In this document: positions 1 to 29,530 of the stretch, in pieces
Position numbering within the stretch: the first letter of the stretch is position 1
How the letters are laid out: each line of letters begins with the position of its first letter
From: an uncultured Myxococcales bacterium
GTDB lineage: Bacteria > Myxococcota_A > Polyangia > Palsa-1104 > JAEUJZ01
NCBI GenBank assembly: GCA_937868485.1
Contig: CALMML010000323.1
Coordinates: forward strand, 1-33,207
Length of the DNA: 33,207 bases
Direction of reading: 5' to 3'
The notes under the pieces: generated by a model
Databases searched by the model: none
What the model saw: only the letters and a program-made list of their open reading frames with translations
Told to the model about the DNA's origin: nothing
Translations under genes and position numbers: made by a program

Positions 1-342
1 GAGCTGGATCATCAAGATCGGCTGCTTGATGACTTGCTCAAGCGACTGCCACTTTACGACGAAGATCAGCAGCTTATCCGTCGCTGGCAAAAGCCAGGAA
101 GCTTGACGCTAAGCAGTCAACCCGACGGAGCCACGGTTGCATTTCAGCGCTATCAGCTCGACGCACAGGGCCACTGGTCCGTCGTCGAAAATAAAGTGAT
201 TGGGAAGACGCCCGTTTCGGAGCAGACGCTGCCGCCGGGAAGCTACCTCATCACCGTGTCGCAGCCCGGACACCGCGACGTTCGTCTGCCGATGCTGATC
301 GGTCACGACGAGGAGTTAAAGCAGCATGTCATCCTCCCCTGA
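1..342 (+). CDS. C-terminal part of a kinase/STAND-like signalling protein (5' end outside window)
   Basis: The frame is open from base 1 and ends at TGA 340-342, so this is the last 113 codons of a longer gene. The segment closely resembles residues about 855-965 of the next gene. It has the same helical stretch ending LPLYDEDQQLIRRW (compare MTLYDVGQSRLRRW), then a beta-rich PEGA-like domain with the shared pattern LPPGSYLITVSQPGH and a final VRLPMLIGHDEEL. It stops exactly where the downstream paralogue continues into its FGE-like domain, so this copy lacks that module. The last 17 bases overlap the next gene, which suggests translational coupling. The N-terminal domains cannot be seen, so kinase and NTPase content is inferred only from the paralogue. 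Confidence 0.8.
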   Translation, partial: ELDHQDRLLDDLLKRLPLYDEDQQLIRRWQKPGSLTLSSQPDGATVAFQRYQLDAQGHWSVVENKVIGKTPVSEQTLPPGSYLITVSQPGHRDVRLPMLIGHDEELKQHVILP

Positions 343-3300
343 AACCGAGTGGAAGCCCCCCAAGCTGTTCGACGGCTACCGCGTCTTGTGGACGATCAGC
401 CGAACCGAGCGCAGCTCGCTGTGCATGGGCCAAGACTCCGTGCTCGACAGACCCGTCACGATCCGGTTTCTGGATCTGACGGATCGCGACACCTTGCTGC
501 GTGAGCGCTTCGTCGCCGAGGCTCGATCGATAGCACGCGTCCAGCATCCCAACGTGGTGATGGTGCATCGCGTCGGAACCATCGACGGACGACCGTACAT
601 CATCTGCGAATACGTGCGAGGACAGAGCGTCGAGCAGCTTCCCAAGCCACTGCCGTGGCGACAGGTTCTGCCGCTGGCGATGGCGGCGGCGCGGGGACTT
701 GCGGCAGCACACCGTCGCGGCGTTCTGCATCGCAGCCTACGTCCGAGCAATCTGCTGGTGGCGTCCGACGGAACGATCAAGATCACCGACTTTGGACTTC
801 GTGAGTTTTGTGGAGAAGAGATCTCGCGCACACGGTCGGTGGCCGACGGACCGGGACAAGCGGCGGACTCGCAGCCAGAGCTGCTTTTGCCACAGCGTGC
901 CGAGGAGCTTCGTCAGAAAGCCAGCCTGTTTGTCGCGCCGGAGGTCAAAGCCAAAGAGCCGCCGACGCAGCGTGCGGATCTGTTCGCGCTCGGGGCCATC
1001 TTGTATGAGCTGTGCATCGGAAAGCCGCCGCCCGCGTCGGTGATTGATCAGCCGCCGAGCGATGACTTGCAAGCGAGTGGCTGGCCCGTCGACATCGACT
1101 CGCGCTTTGCCAAGGTCATCTTGCGCTGTCTGCGTGCGCATCCACCGGATCGCTACGGCTCGTCGGAAGAGCTGGAATCCGCGCTCGATCTGCTTCAGCC
1201 TCGCAGCGGTGCCGACAAGATTCCTGAAGGAAATCCGTATCGAGGACTGCTTCCGTTCGAGGCCGAGCATCGCTCGCTGTTCTTCGGTCGTCGCAGTGAA
1301 ATCGGAACGCTGGTGGAGCGGCTGCGTACGGATGCGTGTGTGCTCGTCGCTGCAGAGTCAGGTGTTGGCAAGTCGTCGCTGTGTCGCGCAGGTGTGATTC
1401 CGCTGGTGGCCGAAGGAGTGCTCGGTTCGGGTCGAAGCTGGCGCGTCGTGACGATGGTTCCAGGACGGCATCCGCTGCGGGCGCTCACCCAAGCACTGTC
1501 GTCGCTGAGCAAGCACGGAGAAGAAGAGCTGCTGACCGAGCTGCGCAGCGAACCCGAGCGACTGGGACGGCTTTTGCATCAGAGCCTGGGCAGCGATCGC
1601 GGCGTGATGCTGTTTGTCGATCAGCTGGAAGAGCTGTCTACGATTGCCGATCCAGCCGAGGCGCAGATCGTCGGAGAAGCGCTGGGAAGTCTGCTCGCGC
1701 GGATTCCAGGGGTTCGGCTGCTCATCACCGTGCGCAGCGATTACTTGGGTCGGGTCGCGAGCCTGCCAAGCATCGGGGAAGCGGTAACGCGCTCGCTGTA
1801 TATTTTGCGACCGCTTGGCGCGGATCGAATTCGCGAAGCGGTCGTCGGTCCGGCGCACGCAAAAGGAGTGCTGTTTGAGAGCACGGATCTCATCAGCGGA
1901 CTGGTGGATTCAACGGCTCACACCGACGGTGCGCTGCCTCTTTTGCAGTTTACGCTGGCAGAGCTGTGGGAAGCGCGCGAAGGAAACAGAATCACCAAGT
2001 CCGCGCTGGAAACGATAGGTGGTGTGACGGGTGCGCTGTCTCGACACGCGGATCATGTGATTGGCACGCTGCCGCCTCCGCAGCGAAACAGTGCGCGTCG
2101 CGTGTTGATGTCTCTGGTGACGCTGGAAGGAACGCGCGCACGTCGCAGCGAAGAGGAGCTGGTCAACGACGATCCGAATGCGAAAGCGGCGCTCGAAGCG
2201 CTGGTTCAAGGACGGCTGTTGGTTGCGCGCGATACGGCGGATGGAACTGCGTATGAAGTCGCGCACGAAGCGCTCATCAAAGGCTGGTCGACGCTGGGAA
2301 AGTGGCTGGAAGAGTTTGCAGAGAGCCGAGCCGCCAAGCAGAGACTCGAGTCCGCAGCAGCAGAGTGGCGCAGACTTTCGCGCAGCAGTGAAGGTCTGTG
2401 GTCGACGCAGCAGCTTGCGGAATCTGCGGTGATTGATGCAGCAGACATTGGAAGCAAAGAAGCAGAGTTTCTGGAAGCATCGCGAAAACATCAGCGCAAA
2501 CGGCAGATCGTACGGAACCTGCTGATTGGATCGATTCCTCTGCTGGCAGGACTCACGTACGGAGCGGCAGAGTACGCAGCACACCGAAACCTCTCGAAAC
2601 GAATTGCATCCTATCTGGCGGAAGGAACGAGCGAGCTACAGAGCGCGCGTCGTCGAAATCGAGAAGTGGAAGCGCTTCGCAAGAGTGCGTTTACAGCGTT
2701 TGACAGCATGAACATCGCAGACGGTGAAGCGATGTGGAGTCGAGCGATCAGCGCAACGGTGGAAGCAGAGCGATCCTATTCCCGTGCAAGCCAGACGTTT
2801 GAAGCGGCACTGACGGCAGATGGATCAAATCTGTCCGCCAAAGATCTGCTTGCTGATGTGCTGTATGAACGCGCGCTGATCGCAGAGCGAGACCGCAGAC
2901 CACAGCAGCTGGATGATCTGCTTCAGCGCATGACACTGTATGATGTGGGACAGAGTCGTCTCCGTCGCTGGAATGCGCCCGCTGTGCTGTCTGTTCAGAC
3001 CAAGCCAACGGGTGCGCGCATCACGATTGGAAAGTACGAACACGATCAAAAAGGAAGACGGCTCCTCACCGGAATTCGTGATCTGGGAATGAGCGCACTG
3101 TCCGATGTATCGCTGAGTCCGGGATCGTATCTGCTGACCGTGGTAGCGCCAGGTCACAGCGAAGTGCGATATCCGATCTTGCTGGGTCGGGAAGAAAAGC
3201 TCTCTTTGCAGATCAGTCTTCCGACGCAAAGTCAGGTTCCCAGCGGCTATGTCTATGTTCCGCCCGGACGATTCCTGTTCGGTTCCGGTGCGGAAGAAGC

Positions 3301-4066
3301 GATGCGAAAAGGAATGCTCAATACGGTTCCGATTCACGAGCTGAAGACAGACGGATTCCTGATCGCCAAGACAGAGACTACGTTTGCGGACTGGCTGGCA
3401 TTCCTACTGGCGCTCTCAGCGGACAAGCGCAAGCAGTACATGGCTGAACCCACCAACGGAACGCTCCCCGGTGCCGTCGGTCTGGCGCAGCTCCCAAGCG
3501 GTGAGTGGGAGCTTACGCTGCAACCAACGAACAAGAAGTACATTGCGCGCGGAACCCAGAACATTGTCTATTCCTCTCGCAAGCAGAATCAGGAGCAGCG
3601 CTGGTTAAAGATCCCTGTGAGCGGAGTCACGCTGCAAGATGCCAAAGACTACGCAGCATGGATGGACAAGAGCGGCAAGCTGCCAGGTGCGCGACTCTGT
3701 CATGAACAGGAGTGGGAGCGCGCAGCCAAAGGTGCCGATGATCGAGAGTGGCCGCACGGCGATGAGCTACTGCCCGGAGATGCCAACTTCGATCTCACAT
3801 ACGGAGCCGATGCAGCGTCGATGGGTCCTGACGAAGTCAGCAGCTATCCACAGTCACGCAGTCCGTTCGGTGTCGACGACATGGCGGGAAACGTACTGGA
3901 ATGGACGGACTCCTTTTTGAACAAGGGAGAGAGTCTGGTTCGCAGTGGCAGCTACTTCTTTTCCGCACTGGTTCAGCGCAGCACCAACCGAAGTCAGCTC
4001 GATGCCACCACACGCAGTCCCGGCGTCTCTTTGCGACTCTGTGCAACGCTCAAGCTGATGCCCTGA
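326..4066 (+). CDS. Pseudokinase / STAND NTPase / PEGA-like / FGE-sulfatase-like fusion protein
   Basis: Large modular protein of 1246 residues. Residues about 17-290 have a Ser/Thr kinase fold, but the VAIK lysine is Arg47, the HRD motif is HRS (Ser137) and the glycine loop has no glycines. DFG (155-157) and APE (204-206) remain. Residues about 301-720 match novel-STAND NTPases: NPYRGLLPFE, then FFGRRSE, a Walker A (ESGVGKSS, with Ala343 for the usual first Gly), and a Walker B (VMLFVDQLEEL, 427-437). A membrane helix lies at about 730-752, then a helical region, a PEGA-like domain (about 880-965), and an FGE-sulfatase/SUMF1-type domain (about 972-1246) with MAGNVLEWTD. The start ATG at 326 overlaps the preceding paralogue by 17 bases. 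The likely role is membrane-anchored signalling or scaffolding; kinase catalysis looks improbable. The substrate or partner is unknown. Confidence 0.88.
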   Translation: MSSSPETEWKPPKLFDGYRVLWTISRTERSSLCMGQDSVLDRPVTIRFLDLTDRDTLLRERFVAEARSIARVQHPNVVMVHRVGTIDGRPYIICEYVRGQSVEQLPKPLPWRQVLPLAMAAARGLAAAHRRGVLHRSLRPSNLLVASDGTIKITDFGLREFCGEEISRTRSVADGPGQAADSQPELLLPQRAEELRQKASLFVAPEVKAKEPPTQRADLFALGAILYELCIGKPPPASVIDQPPSDDLQASGWPVDIDSRFAKVILRCLRAHPPDRYGSSEELESALDLLQPRSGADKIPEGNPYRGLLPFEAEHRSLFFGRRSEIGTLVERLRTDACVLVAAESGVGKSSLCRAGVIPLVAEGVLGSGRSWRVVTMVPGRHPLRALTQALSSLSKHGEEELLTELRSEPERLGRLLHQSLGSDRGVMLFVDQLEELSTIADPAEAQIVGEALGSLLARIPGVRLLITVRSDYLGRVASLPSIGEAVTRSLYILRPLGADRIREAVVGPAHAKGVLFESTDLISGLVDSTAHTDGALPLLQFTLAELWEAREGNRITKSALETIGGVTGALSRHADHVIGTLPPPQRNSARRVLMSLVTLEGTRARRSEEELVNDDPNAKAALEALVQGRLLVARDTADGTAYEVAHEALIKGWSTLGKWLEEFAESRAAKQRLESAAAEWRRLSRSSEGLWSTQQLAESAVIDAADIGSKEAEFLEASRKHQRKRQIVRNLLIGSIPLLAGLTYGAAEYAAHRNLSKRIASYLAEGTSELQSARRRNREVEALRKSAFTAFDSMNIADGEAMWSRAISATVEAERSYSRASQTFEAALTADGSNLSAKDLLADVLYERALIAERDRRPQQLDDLLQRMTLYDVGQSRLRRWNAPAVLSVQTKPTGARITIGKYEHDQKGRRLLTGIRDLGMSALSDVSLSPGSYLLTVVAPGHSEVRYPILLGREEKLSLQISLPTQSQVPSGYVYVPPGRFLFGSGAEEAMRKGMLNTVPIHELKTDGFLIAKTETTFADWLAFLLALSADKRKQYMAEPTNGTLPGAVGLAQLPSGEWELTLQPTNKKYIARGTQNIVYSSRKQNQEQRWLKIPVSGVTLQDAKDYAAWMDKSGKLPGARLCHEQEWERAAKGADDREWPHGDELLPGDANFDLTYGADAASMGPDEVSSYPQSRSPFGVDDMAGNVLEWTDSFLNKGESLVRSGSYFFSALVQRSTNRSQLDATTRSPGVSLRLCATLKLMP

Positions 4067-5483: not shown

Positions 5484-6590
5484 TTGTATCGTGTCATCGT
5501 GTCTGCTGTTCGCTTCCTTCAGATCGAGCCGACCACTCGCTGCAACTTCACCTGCGGCTTTTGCTGTGGTCGATACATGGATCAGGCCGACCTTCCTTTT
5601 GAGCGCTTCGAGAGCCTGCTCGCTGCGCATCCCAGCGTCGAGCACGTCGAACTACAAGGAGAAGGAGAGTCGCTGCTTCATCCACGCTTTTTCGACATGG
5701 TCAAAGCGCTGCGCGAACGGAACATCAAGGTCTCGATCATCACAAACGGCAGCTTGATCAGTGAAGCGCATGCCGCGCAGCTGGTCGCGCTAGGAATCGA
5801 AAAAGTATCGGTATCGATGGAGTCCGCAGAGTCCGAGACGTTTCGACAGATTCGAGGAGGAAAGCTCGAAAAAGTCATCGCCGGACTGTCCGCGCTGGTG
5901 TCAGAAAAAAAGAAGCAGCAGAGCCTGCGTCCGATCATTGGTCTGTCGATCACCGTGCTGCGAGACACCCAAGATCATCTGCCCGGAATCATCGCGCTGT
6001 ACAAGAAGCTGGGTCTCGATGGCGGCGTCACTCTTCAGCCACTGTCGACGATGCCGCTGTATGAAAAGAACTATCCAGACGGACTGCGAAGACAGGTTCT
6101 GTCCGATCACGAAGTCGATGATCTGTGGGTTCGCGTGCGCATGCACAAAGAGCTACGGCAGATTCAGAAGCAAAAAGACAAGCTCCGTGTAGACAGTTTT
6201 TACGATGAGCTACTGTCTGGATTTCAACCAGGTTCCCGTCGCTGTCCTTGGCTTGAACAGGGTCTGTATGTCAATCATCAAGGCACTGCCACCGCGTGCT
6301 GCATGATCAAAGACACCGAGCGATTCCGATTGGGAGTCATCGGTCAAGACTCGCCCCAGCAGATTCAAGCGGAGCGCGCAGCACTCGCCGCAGAGTTAAA
6401 AAAGGGAGTCCTTCCCGCGCCATGTACCGGCTGTGAGCTGGGACGCTTTGCGCTGATGAATCGCTGGCAGCTCTTTGCGTTTGCGATGGGAGGCGTGCTG
6501 CGTCGCTATTCTCCGCGCGCAGTGTGGCGCAGGCTGCGTCCACAGAAGCCGAAGGTACGACTCCCACTGCTGCCTCCTACCGCATCCTGA
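5484..6590 (+). CDS. Radical SAM protein with SPASM-like C-terminal cluster
   Basis: Radical SAM enzyme of up to 368 residues. The motif CNFTCGFC (Cys20, Cys24, Cys27) would bind the SAM-cleaving 4Fe-4S cluster. The following ELQGEGESLLHP resembles the glycine-rich SAM-binding segment. A SPASM/twitch-like C terminus has Cys near 254, a CC pair near 272 and CTGC at about 314-317, probably holding an auxiliary Fe-S cluster. The start is uncertain: TTG 5484 gives the longest form, but GTG 5499 (V-S-A-V-R-F-L-Q-I-E-P) looks more like the family; neither has a good Shine-Dalgarno. The substrate is unknown. SPASM proteins often modify peptides or mature enzymes, but no obvious precursor peptide is adjacent. 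The C-terminal tail after 330 is basic and Pro-rich. Confidence 0.85.
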   Translation: MYRVIVSAVRFLQIEPTTRCNFTCGFCCGRYMDQADLPFERFESLLAAHPSVEHVELQGEGESLLHPRFFDMVKALRERNIKVSIITNGSLISEAHAAQLVALGIEKVSVSMESAESETFRQIRGGKLEKVIAGLSALVSEKKKQQSLRPIIGLSITVLRDTQDHLPGIIALYKKLGLDGGVTLQPLSTMPLYEKNYPDGLRRQVLSDHEVDDLWVRVRMHKELRQIQKQKDKLRVDSFYDELLSGFQPGSRRCPWLEQGLYVNHQGTATACCMIKDTERFRLGVIGQDSPQQIQAERAALAAELKKGVLPAPCTGCELGRFALMNRWQLFAFAMGGVLRRYSPRAVWRRLRPQKPKVRLPLLPPTAS

Positions 6591-22224: not shown

Positions 22225-23160
22225 ATGAACTTTTCCGATCCACAGTCGCTGCTTGGGCCGCTCTGCGCGCTCGGTAGCTCGCTGACCTGGGCGCTTGGCT
22301 CGTCGGTGTACGCTCGCCAAGCCGGTCGTGTCGGAGCGATGGAAGTCAACTTTTCGCGCGCCGCCATCGCTTCACCGCTCTTTTTTGTCGTCGCCATGCT
22401 AAGCGGCGGACTCGCCAGCATCGGAGCGCTCACCCTGCACAGCGTCGGATGGCTGTCTTTGTCCGTCGTGTGCTCCTACGGCCTTGGCGACATGCTGTTC
22501 TATCATGCAGCAATGCGCCTCGGGACACCGACGGCGCTGGCGATTGCTTCGATCTATCCGCTGTGGGCGACGCTGTTTGGCGCACTCACCCTCGGCGAAC
22601 ACGTCGGCGGCCAGCGCCTGCTTGGAACGATGCTGTGCGTCGCAGGCGTCGTCTGGCTGGTGTTCTTGCAAGCCGCCGCCAAGGGAAACTCCGCCGACGC
22701 GCAACCCAAGCGACATCGACTGACTGGCCTTCTTCTTGCGCTGCTCACGTCGCTGATGTGGGCGGGAAATACCTATTCGGTCCGTCGCGGCGGAATCGGT
22801 CTGACTCCGTTTGTCGTCAACGGCTTTCGCTATCTGCTGGCTTCGACGGTGCTTGGATCGCTGTGGCTGATCCGTCGTCTGAAACATCCGCCCGGGCCGA
22901 ATGAACCACAGCTTTTTTGCTCCAAGCCCGATCTGCTGCGCTTCGTTCCCGCCGTCATCACCGAAGCGTTCATCGGAAGCTCGATCTTTGTCTACGCGAT
23001 GACCCACACCGACTTGAGCATCGCCACGCCGCTCGCTGCCATGTCGCCGCTGTTCGCAGTCCCCGTCGGTATCTTGCTGGGCGGAGAGCCGCTCGACGTA
23101 AGACGACTGCTCGCCATCATCGTCACCGTCGCTGGCGTCGTCTGTTTGGTCACAGCCTAG
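22225..23160 (+). CDS. EamA / DMT superfamily transporter
   Basis: Protein of 311 residues with about ten membrane helices in two EamA repeats, about residues 8-150 and 170-310. Features typical of the family are SSLTWALGSSVYAR in helix 1, YHAAMRLGTPTALAIASIYPLWATLFGA in helices 3-4 followed by GE, and the matching second-half segment IATPLAAMSPLFAVPVGILLGGEPL. Transport substrate (metabolite export is usual for the superfamily) cannot be read from the sequence. ATG 22225 is preferred; a GTG immediately before it is also possible. Its stop codon overlaps the stop of the convergent gene in a CTAG. Confidence 0.9.
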   Translation: MNFSDPQSLLGPLCALGSSLTWALGSSVYARQAGRVGAMEVNFSRAAIASPLFFVVAMLSGGLASIGALTLHSVGWLSLSVVCSYGLGDMLFYHAAMRLGTPTALAIASIYPLWATLFGALTLGEHVGGQRLLGTMLCVAGVVWLVFLQAAAKGNSADAQPKRHRLTGLLLALLTSLMWAGNTYSVRRGGIGLTPFVVNGFRYLLASTVLGSLWLIRRLKHPPGPNEPQLFCSKPDLLRFVPAVITEAFIGSSIFVYAMTHTDLSIATPLAAMSPLFAVPVGILLGGEPLDVRRLLAIIVTVAGVVCLVTA

Positions 23161-24905
23161 CGCTCGCGACGCAGCACACCCGCGGCATGAATCACCACCG
23201 GCTCGTCGGCGATCCGAACCACCAAGTCACCCTGAAGCTTCTGCTCATCGACGCACGCAGCAATCTGACCGAGCAGCGTCGCCAGCGCATCGACCTGATC
23301 GGCATCACCGGGCGCAGCCCACGCTCGCGCCAGCGCATCCGCATCGTCTGAAAACATCGGCAACAGCGACGCTTCTGATTCGGCATCAGCCATCAGCGGC
23401 TCGACCCGCAGCACGTCACCGAGCCCACGCTCGCGCTGAAGCAAAATGCGCAGCGACGGACCACGCGGTGACACTTCCCGAAGAAGCACGTACGCATAGC
23501 GCTCCAGCAACAGCGACGTCTGACGCTTTACCTCGGCCTGCGTTTCACACAGCACACCGTCGCGCGACTCGGTCGTCGCCAGCTTCGTCACATCTTCGCT
23601 CGGCGGCAGTCCCGGCAGCACCCACACTGGCGTCCCCAGCTTGGCCACGACGCGCAGCGCCGACGTCGTCGTGCTTACCGGCGCTTGCCGCGTGACACGC
23701 ACGCCATACGAGTGGAGCAGCCGCTTGATGTCATGGTCCCCGAGCGGCTCGCTCTGCACCATCTCACCCGCGACGTACAGCGGAGGCGGCAGCTCGGACA
23801 GCACCGAATCCAGGCGCTCACGCACCGGACGAACCACCACTTTGGCATGAGCCAGCGACGGAACCGACAGCGACTGAATCGCAACCAGCAGCGCCCGCAG
23901 CCGATCGCGCTCCGACGGATCCAGCAGCAGTGCCGGTCGCGACGGACGAAGCTCCGCAAGCTGATCTTTGTCACCGCACAGGATGAGCAGCTCGGACTGC
24001 TCTGCGGCTCGGTGCAGCGCACGCTCTACCGCTTCGTCGTCGTCGGCATCAATCCGCACCGGCGCCGGCATCCGCAGCGCATCCAGCTCGCGCTGAATCA
24101 GATCCGCACCAGCCCCGAGCACCAGCACGCTGGCTCGTCGCTGACTTGCCGAAGCGCGTCGCACACTCGACCGACCTTGCGGAACCGGACCAAAGCCCGC
24201 ATCAAGCAGCGCACCGTGAGCCAGCCACTCCTCGAAGTTGGCCGTCACCCGCGACAGCGACCGTCTGGCCACCGCACGAAGCAGACCCACATCACGATGC
24301 AGCGTCGGCAGCAGCACCACCGATGGCTTTCCCGCGAGCGCGTCGAGCAGCGTCTGTGGTCGCACACCTTTGCCCAGCGCAATCAGCATCCCTGCCGTCG
24401 CTGGATCATGCTGCAAAAAGCGCAGCACTTCGGACGGTTCTCCGTCGCCCACCGAGATCAGCCACGACACCCCGAGCAAGCGACTACACAGCAGCGGCGC
24501 CAGCTCAGGAAGCGCATCTCGACGAGGAACCACCAGCGCAACGCGACCGACGCGAGGCCGCTCACCAAGTGGGGCTGCGAGCGGTGCAATTCCGTCGGTG
24601 TTGTTCAAAAAGCCAAAGCTGTGCGGTCCCAGCAGCGCCGCGCCATCATCGAGCGAGATCCCCAGCTTGTCCTCGGGCACGCGACCGTCGGAAATCCACG
24701 CCACAGCCTCTTTGTCGAGCGGCACAGTGCCAAGCTGAAGGTTTGCGCGCACCCGCTGCGCCGCCTTGCTGTCACCTTCGACCCAAAAGGATCGCGCGCG
24801 CAACAGTCGGCTCACGTCGCCCAGCTTCTCTGTCGAAGCGGGCGATCGTCCCGCGCCCAGACTCTGCGCGGATGGTGCTGCCGATTGAACGCGTGGCCGA
24901 CCCAT
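23157..24905 (-). CDS. Degenerate ADP-forming acyl-CoA synthetase (acetate-CoA ligase)-like protein
   Basis: Protein of 582 residues, shorter than the roughly 700 of the full family. I recognise the family from order and spacing. LGPHSFGFLN (92-101) corresponds to the GPNCLGIIN motif. GVSWLISVGDGEPSEVLRFLQHDPAT (145-170 overall) corresponds to the ACD helix region. The C-terminal part (about 385-582) follows an ATP-grasp outline: DIKRLLHSYGVRV, then KLGTPVWVL, then LLREVSPRGPSLRILLQRERGLGDVLRV. The N-terminal CoA-binding glycine motif is lost, the ATP-grasp lysine after GTPV is Leu, and the HKSD-type segment is absent. Catalysis is therefore unlikely. It is the last gene of a three-gene operon, starting 6 bases after the EtfB-like stop. 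Family placement is by eye only. Confidence 0.6.
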   Translation of the reverse strand: MGRPRVQSAAPSAQSLGAGRSPASTEKLGDVSRLLRARSFWVEGDSKAAQRVRANLQLGTVPLDKEAVAWISDGRVPEDKLGISLDDGAALLGPHSFGFLNNTDGIAPLAAPLGERPRVGRVALVVPRRDALPELAPLLCSRLLGVSWLISVGDGEPSEVLRFLQHDPATAGMLIALGKGVRPQTLLDALAGKPSVVLLPTLHRDVGLLRAVARRSLSRVTANFEEWLAHGALLDAGFGPVPQGRSSVRRASASQRRASVLVLGAGADLIQRELDALRMPAPVRIDADDDEAVERALHRAAEQSELLILCGDKDQLAELRPSRPALLLDPSERDRLRALLVAIQSLSVPSLAHAKVVVRPVRERLDSVLSELPPPLYVAGEMVQSEPLGDHDIKRLLHSYGVRVTRQAPVSTTTSALRVVAKLGTPVWVLPGLPPSEDVTKLATTESRDGVLCETQAEVKRQTSLLLERYAYVLLREVSPRGPSLRILLQRERGLGDVLRVEPLMADAESEASLLPMFSDDADALARAWAAPGDADQVDALATLLGQIAACVDEQKLQGDLVVRIADEPVVIHAAGVLRRER

Positions 24906-24911
24906 TTGTAG

Positions 24912-25565
24912 TTACTCCAAACCGTCGCTGCGCAGCCGAGCGACCAGCGCGCCCGGGGACAGAAACAGACGAGGACGGTGATGACGAACCGACTGCGCCA
25001 CCACTTGAAGCTGCGGCGACGGCAAATCCGCGACGCCGAGCGAGACATCGTGAAGCGACCACTCCGTCACGGAAGTCACCGACTGTGCAGGTTCCGAAGC
25101 TGGCTGTAGCGATGGAAGAACCGACAGCACCGCTTGGCTCGTACCGCGAAGCACTTGCAAGCTGCGCAGTCCTCGACGGTGAACCAGAAGCTGTGGATCA
25201 TCGTCTCCGTCGGATACAAGCTTCGCCGATACCACTTCACTAACGTGCGCCAGGTTCAGCTGCTCGGCAATCCCTGCGCTTAAGAATCCCGTCAGTGACT
25301 CCGTCAGCAGCACGATGGATGTGCCCAGACGACGCGCCGCCTGCGCAAGCACCGCTGCATGACGAGCTTCCACGTCGAACGGATGAAACGACGACGGATC
25401 CAGCGATTCGTCCCACAGCCGAATCCGCGTGCTCGACGCAGGCAGCGAAAGCGATGCGAACACCGTATCGTCCGGTGCAATCGCCAGCGCAACGACATCA
25501 CCCAGCGACGACGCAATCTGCGCGGCACGCTGACACTGCGGAGAAACCAGCATCAAGACCTTCAT
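24912..25565 (-). CDS. Degenerate electron-transfer-flavoprotein beta (EtfB/FixA)-like protein
   Basis: Protein of 217 residues, slightly shorter than usual EtfB (about 250). It opens MKVLMLVSPQ like an Etf Rossmann-like domain. A middle stretch RHAAVLAQAARRLGTSIVLL, then GIAEQLNLAHVSEVVSAKLV, follows the EtfB pattern of dispersed nucleotide-binding helix, DLVLLG strand and Ae.Lg.p.v. Next comes HRRGLRSLQVLRGTSQAVLSVLPSLQPASEP, like the EtfB beta-hairpin ending in 'lPavvtv....nePr'. The GxxxxDGDxxQVG nucleotide loop of true EtfB is replaced (TESLTGFLSAG). The ATG at 25565 overlaps the upstream stop in ATGA, so the two are translationally coupled. Function is unknown; redox activity is doubtful. 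Confidence in the gene is high, in the family moderate. Confidence 0.6.
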   Translation of the reverse strand: MKVLMLVSPQCQRAAQIASSLGDVVALAIAPDDTVFASLSLPASSTRIRLWDESLDPSSFHPFDVEARHAAVLAQAARRLGTSIVLLTESLTGFLSAGIAEQLNLAHVSEVVSAKLVSDGDDDPQLLVHRRGLRSLQVLRGTSQAVLSVLPSLQPASEPAQSVTSVTEWSLHDVSLGVADLPSPQLQVVAQSVRHHRPRLFLSPGALVARLRSDGLE

Positions 25566-26854
25566 GGCTGCTCCTCTCGCTTGGCATTTTCGTCGCTGGC
25601 TGCGGCTTTCGGTGATTCGCTGTGACTGTCTTTGTGACCCAGCTCGGTGATCGGCTCGGTATCGATTCCGTCCAGCTCCGCTTGCGGCACGGCGTCTTGA
25701 ACCGAGTGCGGCGTCGGATCGCCATCCCACATCTCGTCGCTGCCCGCATTGGTTCGCTCAAACGACGGGCTCGCGCTCTCTGTGCGTGGCGGATGCGCGA
25801 CGGATGAATCAGCAGCTGTCGACGGAGCAGACACCGGCAGCCGAGGCTCTGTGTCACCCGTCACAATGTCGCTGCCATCCCAAGATCGTCCCGTCGACGG
25901 AGTCAGCTCTTCATCATCATCGCCATGGAAGCTCAGCAGACCGCTCAGGTTCAGCTCGACGGAAGGCTCTTTCGGTCGCGCAAACTCCGCTTCGATGACG
26001 CGCAGCAAGTCCTTGGTCACGCCGTCGCCCAGCGGTAGCCCAAACTGCACATCGGAGCGGTCCACAACGCTCTGACCGACGGCAATCAGCGAATGAACGC
26101 TGCGTCGATCCAGCAAAGCGCGCTCGGATGAAACCGCAACCAGCGGCGGAATCGTATCGGGCCCAATCGTCGCAGGCGGCTGAATCCACAGACGCTGGCT
26201 TCGGGAAAACGGCTCGCAGTGATCTTCCGCCAAACCGCCACCTGGCACCGGGGTCCGCTCGGAGCTGGCATCGACATCAAGCGGCGCCATAAAGCGAACC
26301 GGAACCGCCGTGCTACCTCGCGACAGCGCATACCGTCCCGCTTGCAGCGTCATCACCACCGGCAGCATCGTCGGTGCGAACATCTCATCCGCGAGCGGAT
26401 CGTCACACGGCATCACCTGCTGACCGTGCGAGTCAAACAGCTTGAGTCCTCCGTGTTCGCAGGCCGGCTCTCCCGACGCCAAAAACACGCCACCGATTCG
26501 CGCCGACAGCCGAGGCGCAATGTCGCGAGCCCCCGGCGTATCGGCCATCAGGAACAGCTTCGGAGGAAGCTCCTCGCAGGCTTGCTGTAGCGCGCGCGCA
26601 TACGGCGCAAAGCGCAGCTCATGTTCGTGAACCGTCGACTCTGCGGTCAGCAGCACAACACCGTCGGCGCCAAAGTGCCCAAGAAGCTGCCCGAGCCGCT
26701 CACGAGCTTGCGGTGCCACCGACTGCATCGGCAGCAGCGCATAGACAGTCATGCCGACCGCACTTCCCAGACGCCGAGCCTGACCCAGCGCTTCCAGCGA
26801 GGCGCACAGTGGCTCGCTGTCCAGAAACTCGATCATGACCAAGACGTTTGCCAC
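25562..26854 (-). CDS. EtfA/FixB-like N-terminal domain with acidic disordered tail
   Basis: Protein of 430 residues starting at GTG 26854. Residues 1-185 match the EtfA N-terminal domain: ANVLVMIEF, LEALGQARRLGSAV, then PPKLFLMADTPGARDIAPRLSARIGG split over 97-122. The last is like the 'dlvl...t..GRDlaPRlAarLga' segment. The diagnostic C-terminal FAD-binding motifs of EtfA (GGRG, SRAxVDaGW, QVGQTGK, GISGAIQH) are missing. Instead residues about 230-300 form a short alpha/beta remnant and about 305-430 are a long Asp/Glu/Ser/Pro-rich, probably disordered tail. It is first of the three-gene minus-strand operon. The 194-base gap upstream (26855-27048) probably contains the promoter. FAD binding in the classical manner is unlikely. 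Confidence 0.62.
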   Translation of the reverse strand: MANVLVMIEFLDSEPLCASLEALGQARRLGSAVGMTVYALLPMQSVAPQARERLGQLLGHFGADGVVLLTAESTVHEHELRFAPYARALQQACEELPPKLFLMADTPGARDIAPRLSARIGGVFLASGEPACEHGGLKLFDSHGQQVMPCDDPLADEMFAPTMLPVVMTLQAGRYALSRGSTAVPVRFMAPLDVDASSERTPVPGGGLAEDHCEPFSRSQRLWIQPPATIGPDTIPPLVAVSSERALLDRRSVHSLIAVGQSVVDRSDVQFGLPLGDGVTKDLLRVIEAEFARPKEPSVELNLSGLLSFHGDDDEELTPSTGRSWDGSDIVTGDTEPRLPVSAPSTAADSSVAHPPRTESASPSFERTNAGSDEMWDGDPTPHSVQDAVPQAELDGIDTEPITELGHKDSHSESPKAAASDENAKREEQP

Positions 26855-27048
26855 GAGACTGTTTACCTATCTGCCGAGCGGCCCGCTTGCACGGGAAGAC
26901 AACGGCTGCACCGACGCCAAGTATACAAAAGTCCTCTCTTTGGCGGGGACTTGAGCGTTTCTTGCGCCGATTTCAGAGCCACCATGTAGGACACTTACGC
27001 ACAGAGTAGGACGGCTTCGCAAGTTTTTGCCGCCATCTGCGTGTGCGT

Positions 27049-29334
27049 CTAACGACACACATCTCGTACATCCGCGTGCTGCGGCTGAAACCGCAAGCGC
27101 TGACAGGCATCGTGAAACATCGACTCCAAGCTCGAGCCAAACGTATCGCGATAGACCTTGATGCGACCATCGGCCCCCGCCACCGCAAACGCGCTGCCAT
27201 CGGGAACATAGTCGCCGTGCTCGATGTCATCGGCAATCACCGGAAGCTCAGCCAGCGGCAAGATCGAGTCGGTGTGCGGCGCAGCGGAAATGTCCCAGAC
27301 CCGCACCACGCGATCTTTGCCCACCACGAGCAGTCGCTCTCCGCCTTTTCCCACCGACACCGCCATCGGTCGATCGGGCAGCGCGCGGAACTTGGCCACT
27401 GGCTGACGCTTTTGCACATCCCACAGCCGCACCGTCTGATCGTCGGACGCCGTCACCAGCAAGCCGCCTCGACTCGTCGGTAAAAACGTCAGCTGATTGA
27501 CCGGATCGGGCGTATCGGGAAGCGCGCCGAGCGGTCGCAGGCTGCTCGCATCCCAGACGATGACCTTGCGATCCGTCGCGGCACTCACCAAATAGCGACC
27601 ATCGGGCGACACAGCCATCCAAATCGGCGTGCCACTGTGCGCCAGCGCCGATCCCAGCAGAGCGCCCGTTTGTGCATCCCACATCCGAAACGAGTCTCGA
27701 CTGGCTGAAAACAGTCGTCGGCTATCGCTGCTGAACGCCACCGCAAAGACCGTGTTCGCATGACCGCTCAGCGTCTTTGTGTGCGATCCCGTCTGACCAT
27801 CCCACAGCCGCACCGTCTTGTCCGAGCTGGCCGTCGCAACCTGTCGACCATCCGGCGAAAAACGCGCCATGTGAAGCGGTCCCGCGTGACCCATCAGCTC
27901 GGCGATCAGCTCACCGCGTAGCTTGCTGCGATCCCAGCGCCACAGCCGCGCCGTCCGATCGAGGCTGGCACTCACCAAGCGCGTTCCGTCCGTTTTCAGA
28001 AACTCCAGCGAGGAGATACGACGGCGATGTCCGACCAGTGTCGTCGCTGGAAGCACGCGCTCCAGGTTCCACACCCGCGCCGTGCGATCGTAGCTGCCAG
28101 TGACCGCTCGTCGACCATCTGACGTTAGGTCCAAGTGACGAATCTCTCCACGATGACCGCTCAAGATCGCAACGGGACGCTCCGACGCGATGTGCCACAG
28201 ATAAACGCCGCGCTCTCCCGAGCCCACCGAAATCAAGTGTTCTCCGTCGGGCATAAAGCGCAGATCCGTCACCGTTTCTTCGTGACCCCGTAGCTTTTGC
28301 AGCAGATCACCAGTTCGCCCGTCCCACAGCGTGATCGTACCGCTCGCATCACCGCTCGCCAAAAACCGTCCATCGGGTGAAAAGTCGACGCGCACGACCT
28401 GTTCTTCGTGACCACGCAGCGTAAAAATTTCCCCGAGGCTCAGGCTCCACAGCCGAACGGTCTTGTCATGACTGGCCACCGCGATCTTTTGACCGTCGCT
28501 GGCGAAGCGAACGAAGGTGACGCGATCTCCCGTCGGAATGACATGCTCCACTTTGCCCGTCGTCGTCTCAAAGACTCGCGCGGTCTTGTCCAAGCTCCCC
28601 GACACCAAGTGCCGTCCGTCGGGAGAAAACGCCAGCGAGCGCACCGCATCCACATGTCCAGTCAGCGTCCGTGAAAGCCGACCGGAGACGACGTCCACCA
28701 AGTGAATGCTCCCGTCTCGATATCCAACGGCCACTTGCCTTCCGTCCGCAGCCGGAGCGGCGCTCAGGATCGACTCGTGACCGGCGTGCTCGAACAGCAG
28801 ATTGCCGCTTGGCAGCGCAAACACGCGCAGACGCTTGTCGAGGCTGGTCGTCCAAACGAGCGATCCCTGCGCAGCAAACAAAAGCTCGGTGATGCGATCG
28901 CCGTGCTTGGGCAGCTGAAGCAGGGGCTGTCCGGTTCGCTCATCCCACAGACGCACCGTCAGATCATGACCCGCAGTCGCCACCGTCTTGCCGTCGGGAG
29001 AAAACGCGACATGCGACACAATGTCGTCGTGTCCGTGCAGCGCCAGCGAGTTTTCCGCAACCCGCAGCGCAACCATCAATCCTTCCTTGGCTTCCGTCGG
29101 TAAGGGCCGTCCGTAGAGCAAGCTCGGAGCCGCCGCTTTCACCGCCAGAGCAAGGCCTTCTCCGTCGAGACCGGGCTGACGAACCAGCAGCGCCGCCCGC
29201 GCACCACGCTCTCGCTGAAGCGATTCTTCCGTCGAGCGCAGACGCAAAAACAGCCGCACAAACAGGCCCACAAGCAGCAGCACCGTCAGCAACCCTGCAA
29301 GCCGCACAAGCTGACGCAGCGCCCGCTGATTCAT
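27049..29334 (-). CDS. Membrane-anchored WD40 double-propeller protein
   Basis: Protein of 761 residues from ATG 29334. A single membrane helix lies at about 8-27 (LVRLAGLLTVLLLVGLFVRL), followed by a linker of about 80 residues (with RQPGLDGEGLALAVKAAAPS), then about 14-15 WD40 repeats. Repeats show GH...SPDG..(L/V)(A/V)(T/S)(A/G)S.D.T.R(L/V)WD. The linker closely follows the one that precedes the WD40 part in nSTAND1-WD40 fusion proteins, but no NTPase or kinase is present here. It likely forms one or two beta-propellers for protein binding at the membrane. The upstream extension to 29508 adds basic, low-quality sequence and is rejected because the hydrophobic anchor starts right after ATG 29334. 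It is divergent from the AttH-like gene, with 196 bases between them. Confidence 0.88.
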   Translation of the reverse strand: MNQRALRQLVRLAGLLTVLLLVGLFVRLFLRLRSTEESLQRERGARAALLVRQPGLDGEGLALAVKAAAPSLLYGRPLPTEAKEGLMVALRVAENSLALHGHDDIVSHVAFSPDGKTVATAGHDLTVRLWDERTGQPLLQLPKHGDRITELLFAAQGSLVWTTSLDKRLRVFALPSGNLLFEHAGHESILSAAPAADGRQVAVGYRDGSIHLVDVVSGRLSRTLTGHVDAVRSLAFSPDGRHLVSGSLDKTARVFETTTGKVEHVIPTGDRVTFVRFASDGQKIAVASHDKTVRLWSLSLGEIFTLRGHEEQVVRVDFSPDGRFLASGDASGTITLWDGRTGDLLQKLRGHEETVTDLRFMPDGEHLISVGSGERGVYLWHIASERPVAILSGHRGEIRHLDLTSDGRRAVTGSYDRTARVWNLERVLPATTLVGHRRRISSLEFLKTDGTRLVSASLDRTARLWRWDRSKLRGELIAELMGHAGPLHMARFSPDGRQVATASSDKTVRLWDGQTGSHTKTLSGHANTVFAVAFSSDSRRLFSASRDSFRMWDAQTGALLGSALAHSGTPIWMAVSPDGRYLVSAATDRKVIVWDASSLRPLGALPDTPDPVNQLTFLPTSRGGLLVTASDDQTVRLWDVQKRQPVAKFRALPDRPMAVSVGKGGERLLVVGKDRVVRVWDISAAPHTDSILPLAELPVIADDIEHGDYVPDGSAFAVAGADGRIKVYRDTFGSSLESMFHDACQRLRFQPQHADVRDVCR

Positions 29335-29530
29335 GGTCGACACCACAAAAAAGGCTCGCAGCGACAGAGCATCTGGCAGCAGTGATCGGACCACATCGCA
29401 TGACCACGATAGCGCATCCGATCGCCACGCGTCTTGCCTCATCGTCGCATCACGTCGCAGTCGGAAACAATTCCGCGCCGACGGACGAGCCCAAGCCAGA
29501 AAGCCCAAAATGGTGTAGTTTCAGCCCATC

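Follow-up and report, generated by a model that had tools for sequence, protein, structure and literature searches.

An operon of EtfA-, EtfB- and acyl-CoA synthetase-like proteins without the catalytic residues of their relatives in a class of Myxococcota

Electron transfer flavoproteins (ETFs) and ADP-forming acyl-CoA synthetases are regarded as metabolic enzymes. Here we describe a locus in an uncultured Myxococcales bacterium at which relatives of both are encoded side by side by three genes, A (EtfA-like), B (EtfB-like) and C (synthetase-like), and in which the residues for the known chemistry have been lost. The locus lies on contig CALMML010000323.1, a stretch of 33,207 nucleotides that is one entire contig of a 6.36-Mb draft genome and is referred to below as the window. 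A sequence-only reading of the window had placed a tightly coupled three-gene operon here, and its coordinates, strand, ATGA overlap and 6-bp gap stand as they were given (Table 1). The labels it attached to the genes also hold, in that profile searches lead to ETF-alpha, ETF-beta and ADP-forming synthetase structures and not to different families. The M-A start of gene A is invariant among its relatives, and to judge from the gene layout the operon probably starts in the spacer upstream of A.

Table 1. Features of the operon, of the rest of the window and of related loci (window positions unless a locus number is given)
Feature	Position	Strand	Size	Remarks
Gene A, EtfA-like	25562-26854	-	430 aa	GTG start; stop codon at 25562-25564
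Gene A, domains				ETF domain at residues 12-121 (N-terminal); FAD domain collapsed; tail of low complexity beginning near residue 300
Gene B, EtfB-like	24912-25565	-	217 aa	ATG start at 25565; ATGA overlap with A
Gap between B and C	24906-24911		6 bp
Gene C, synthetase-like	23157-24905	-	582 aa	Reduced CoA-binding part at the N terminus; swinging loop with phospho-His missing from the ligase part; ATP-grasp half
Gene C, ATP-grasp half				ATP-site residues gone; HxxK and RQ invariant
Spacer from A to the next gene upstream (WD40-repeat)	26855-27048		194 bp	Probable operon start
WD40-repeat protein	27049-29508		819 aa	12 or more WD40 repeats; next gene upstream of the operon
Kinase fusion protein	326-4066		1246 aa	Protein kinase domain, nSTAND1 NTPase, PEGA and FGE-sulfatase-type domain
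Radical SAM/SPASM protein	5484-6590
Small Rieske [2Fe-2S] protein gene	L033:11940-12308			Near A; also at L080 and L081

Homology of the three proteins and loss of catalytic residues

Loss of cofactor and catalytic motifs had been suspected from the window alone, and it extends to every member of the family that was examined. Structural statements on A, B and C in what follows rest on profile alignments. Window A matches the Pfam ETF domain (PF01012) at 41.5 bits, above the cut-off of 26.7, and the Pfam search found no match in it to the FAD-binding domain PF00766; the profile of the A family aligns over its whole length with the ETF-alpha structure 5ol2_A (E 9.8e-34). Window B scores 24.6 bits against PF01012, slightly below the cut-off, and its family profile finds the ETF-beta structure 1o94_C (E 8.7e-20). 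A more complete relative at locus L082 (loci, genomes and families carry L, G and f numbers) reaches 76 bits for PF00766 and 70 bits for PF01012 with its A protein, and 84 bits for PF01012 with its B protein.

The fate of the flavin site was followed through the FAD-contact motifs SR, QVGQT, ISGAIQH, INKD and VADYG. At ten conserved positions of the FAD domain, all 10 canonical EtfA proteins taken from the class, among them that of the window genome, read RQQTSQHNDD (one of the ten is truncated and lacks the last position). No member of the A family keeps this set, the closest being that of L082 with RVITSGHNDT, and comparison of residues with canonical EtfA leaves the FAD domain unrecognisable in the window's lineage. 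The region of the EtfB AMP-binding motif appears 4 residues shorter in window B and altered in its relatives. The window genome carries a separate canonical EtfAB pair (G000:C500/C244), and in the tree the A family forms a single side-branch, split from canonical EtfA by a 100/100 branch. The tail of A (25562-25960) is of low complexity, with recurring MW-x-G and DTxP motifs common to G003 and G005, which by their sequence might possibly be short binding motifs.

The profile of the C family finds the ADP-forming synthetase structure 8wzu (E 1.2e-32), and hhalign pairs the window-type C profile with the canonical ADP-forming synthetases (ACDs) of the phylum over 420 columns at 98.6% probability. 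Window C retains only a trace of the ATP-grasp_5 domain (15.4 bits); its relatives score 55–113 bits, with 65 bits for L082 and 113 bits for L072. Judged by these alignments, the 'acyl-CoA synthetase' kinship of C is with the ADP/NDP-forming (ACD) superfamily and not with the AMP-forming acyl-CoA ligases. In ACD catalysis a phosphate passes from one histidine, H535 of the ATP-grasp domain, to another, H256, which sits on a swinging loop (PMC11494057). When the window-type and the f11/f14/f24-type C profiles are aligned to 8wzu and to canonical ACDs, a deletion takes the place of this loop. A pattern search for the SHTG/SHTA motif of this loop found it in 20 of 21 ACDs but in none of the 48 C homologues, if one AHSG string in L077 C, close to its C-terminal end and a chance match, is set aside. 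The position of H535 is a histidine in 95% of the 21 ACDs, all of which have a lysine next to it, and the histidine is not kept in the C family.

Further changes set C apart from the enzymes. The window's lineage has lost ATP-site positions that are 90–100% fixed in ACDs: Lys, Glu, Asp and Asn have been replaced, and so has the Gly-Gly loop. Members from f8 partly keep the lysine after the lost histidine together with an ELNP-like metal region. The N-terminal Rossmann CoA-binding subdomain has also eroded, since the alignment of C to ACDs begins only at residue 91 (LLGPHSFG) in the window's lineage, and it is absent from the f11/f14/f24 proteins. Four other residues, His391, Lys394, Arg406 and Gln407 in window numbering, are 96–100% fixed in the C family, whereas the commonest residue at these positions reaches only 48–67% among ACDs; as far as alignments can tell, the constraints on the C family thus differ from those on the enzymes. 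Like A, the C family is one side-branch of the tree, split from the ACDs by a 100/98 branch.

Conservation, neighbourhood and selection

We surveyed the class with a C profile search of 241 genomes and open reading frame scans of the loci found, which yielded 48 distinct C homologues in eight families (f1, f2, f3, f8, f11, f14, f23 and f24); some of these sequences had served to train the profiles, and matches outside the training sets include L055, L058, L061, L070, L079 and L097-L099. Of the 42 loci with at least 600 bp of sequence ahead of C, 39 have an ETF-like gene immediately before it, the exceptions being L070 (G134), L084 (G149) and L085 (G102). The A-B-C order is kept at 25–50% identity in otherwise unrelated surroundings, which is more than chance would give, with the genes touching or overlapping, and tblastn searches outside the genus found A, B and C still together whereas the neighbours GGT, HrpB, EamA and WD40 were not. 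A scan of genome contigs gave just two records, both from the same genus.

The claim that the three genes are conserved as a unit therefore stands for their order at many loci, but not for their presence throughout. Members of f8 lack B and have one short ETF-like protein ahead of C. Searches of the whole genomes of G102 and G149 turned up nothing but an EtfA of canonical score range, confirmed as canonical by its residues, so that C occurs there alone; in G102, an AT-rich genome of 1.6 Mb that is 98% complete, C (L085:7349-8749) lies directly behind aroC. At L080:5809-7062 (G045), A and B are fused into a single protein of 417 aa, and across the families A and B shrink gradually. Because C remains where A and B are lost, gene content marks C as the constant part and probable functional core. 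In two large f8 genomes, a canonical etfA is found about 26–28 kb from the reduced A-C locus (positions 3916437 and 3942557 on G127:C1, and 2143868 and 2116127 on G113:C2).

The genes around the operon vary with the lineage. In f2 and f3, and in genera of the window's family other than its own, the gene immediately before A encodes a short-chain dehydrogenase (SDR), 53–64% identical to that of G005. Several f11 and f14 loci have a Rieske-domain gene near A instead of the SDR. Beyond these genes, the locus is syntenic outside the window's family. On the upstream side, f3, f8, f23 and f24 have DUF507 with a divergently oriented NUDIX gene, and f11 and f14 have aroC; on the downstream side, f2, f3, f8, f11 and f14 share a convergent gene for a CCA-adding enzyme/poly(A) polymerase. 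Wider synteny was not detected within the window's family. The simplest reading is that the operon was inherited vertically from the ancestor of the class. The linkage of the WD40-repeat gene to the operon is confined to the genus. Elsewhere in the window lies the kinase fusion gene (Table 1), and neither tRNAs nor known RNA families were found in the window.

All three genes are under purifying selection. Between the window and G002, of the same genus, the ratio of non-synonymous to synonymous substitution rates (dN/dS, by the NG86 and YN00 methods) is 0.16 and 0.12 for A, 0.18 and 0.10 for B and 0.16 and 0.11 for C, and the comparison genes HrpB and EamA gave similar values, 0.15 and 0.14, and 0.13 and 0.08, respectively. 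Selection on the long open frames, which the sequence-only reading had taken for conserved pseudo-enzymes, is thereby borne out. In a sample of 237 genomes of the phylum, high-scoring C homologues are confined to the class; matches outside it lie mainly over the ATP-grasp part and, in the 12 such loci read, look like canonical ACDs.

Possible roles of the operon and comparison with known systems

We propose, at a probability of roughly 45%, that the A-B-C set has been repurposed. An ancient side-branch of EtfA and EtfB would have joined an ACD derivative, C, early in this class of Myxococcota, and the set would then have lost its original chemistry and been retained for another task. On this proposal the products of A, B and C would assemble into one complex, with C held by the subunits of ETF fold. 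C itself would have no catalytic activity and would serve a partner enzyme as regulator or scaffold. The best candidate for a client or output would be the SDR encoded next to the operon in the rest of the order. A bolder form is more tentative again: a class-wide complex of an ETF heterodimer and an ACD, both non-catalytic, that regulates a partner enzyme (in the window's order one of SDR type) and whose core would be C, which even a genome of 1.6 Mb has kept.

Several observations weigh against repurposing as set out here. The proposed complex and its regulatory role are drawn from sequence, and AlphaFold2 on C (3 sequences) and A (2 sequences) returned pLDDT values of 34.6 and 34.4 and no usable model. 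An SDR cannot be an obligatory partner, because it is missing from the window's own genus, which has no SDR at the locus and only distant SDRs (38%) elsewhere. Furthermore, L082, L034 and L086, from other families, retain a recognisable FAD domain (PF00766) that still has the GAIQH histidine and, in some cases, the Arg and Asn. Several of the members that keep this domain adjoin a Rieske-type gene; a residual flavin or redox function may thus persist in them.

The original suggestion for the operon was a non-catalytic complex that senses nucleotides or acyl-CoA. Its pseudo-enzymes are confirmed, class-wide and under purifying selection; sensing of either ligand is a tentative reading. In its present form, C would bind acyl-CoA, or A and B a nucleotide, and signal to a partner by analogy with Pat/PatZ, in which an inactive ACD domain that binds acetyl-CoA controls a GNAT domain (PMC8556138). 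The affinity for acetyl-CoA of the ACD domain of type I/II Pat, which has no catalytic histidine, is nanomolar (PMC8556138). The Pat structures 9isq and 9it0 are among the matches of the C profile, and the stretch of C from GPxSFGFLNN to SVGDGDP aligns to the boundary of the ACD ligase subdomain. However, the Rossmann subdomain that would bind CoA cannot be aligned in the window's lineage and is gone from three families, as described above, and neither a GNAT domain nor any other output domain is encoded in the operon. The parts that bind ligands are those that erode (in A the FAD domain; in C the Rossmann subdomain, the loops with the phospho-His and the residues of the ATP site), and this speaks for a scaffold no less than for a sensor. 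We consider a sensor unlikely.

Comparably unlikely is an active enzyme with changed chemistry, either an ETF with a different mode of flavin binding that exchanges electrons with an SDR or a Rieske protein, or an ATP-grasp enzyme that uses a different nucleophile. The FAD domain fold kept in members of f11, f14, f23 and f24, the SDR or Rieske genes adjoining the loci, and the lysine and metal region partly kept in f8 would all fit such an enzyme. In the window's lineage, on the other hand, the FAD domain has collapsed and none of the ATP-site Lys, His-Lys, Glu, Asp and Asn is kept, and these genomes are served by separate canonical EtfA genes. It is improbable that A-B and C are functionally unrelated and merely share a conserved locus: the wider locus is indeed syntenic on both sides of the operon, and C occurs without A and B, yet the touching or overlapping A-B-C order has survived relocation in the window's family, where that wider synteny was not detected. 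Decay, by which the genes would be the remnants of a metabolic cluster en route to loss, agrees with the graded shrinkage of A and B and their complete loss in G102 and G149, but it is very improbable and we reject it, given intact frames with dN/dS of 0.10–0.18, family-specific residues highly conserved across families, the persistence of C in a genome of only 1.6 Mb, the finding that no homologous operon among the loci surveyed has intact catalytic motifs, and a search of 237 genomes of the phylum that found no intact EtfAB-ACD ancestor operon.

A link to mycofactocin was considered because the best NCBIfam match of the L082 proteins is to the mycofactocin EtfAB models (NF038209 and TIGR04503) and a radical SAM gene lies in the window. 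The match amounts to 112 and 67 bits, far below the curated cut-offs of 240 and 200, and no mycofactocin radical SAM protein exceeded its cut-off in 8 operon-carrying genomes. The radical SAM protein of the window is nearest to the maturases of tungsten-cofactor oxidoreductases, itself far below cut-off, and the link was rejected. No NCBIfam model matches the operon proteins at cut-off, and literature searches on EtfA-/EtfB-like pseudo-enzymes and on ETF with ACD in myxobacteria or Sorangium found no such system.

Automatic annotation would tend to label these genes as ETF subunits and synthetases, and so introduce false steps into metabolic models. Should the repurposing proposed here prove correct, the ETF fold can be recruited for work other than redox chemistry, for which we found no case in the literature searched, and inactive ACD modules have a second setting after Pat/PatZ. 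Canonical EtfAB (PF01012 and PF00766) shares with the operon its fold, the pairing of subunits and the adjacency of the A and B genes; it differs in keeping the FAD-contact set, which has been replaced in the operon proteins, and in having no linkage to an ACD-like gene, and the window genome carries both. Members of the ACD superfamily (8wzu, 4xyl) align with C over the ligase and ATP-grasp parts, but the swinging-loop and ATP-grasp histidines are absent from 48 of 48 C proteins, and the CoA-binding subdomain is reduced or gone. Pat/PatZ resembles C in having a non-catalytic ACD module without the catalytic histidine (PMC8556138), although there the module is fused to a GNAT domain, while C matches no GNAT family in the Pfam or NCBIfam results and has ETF-like proteins encoded next to it. 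We place the operon in the ETF and ACD superfamilies, as a set that probably works unlike either and is a member of neither enzyme family.
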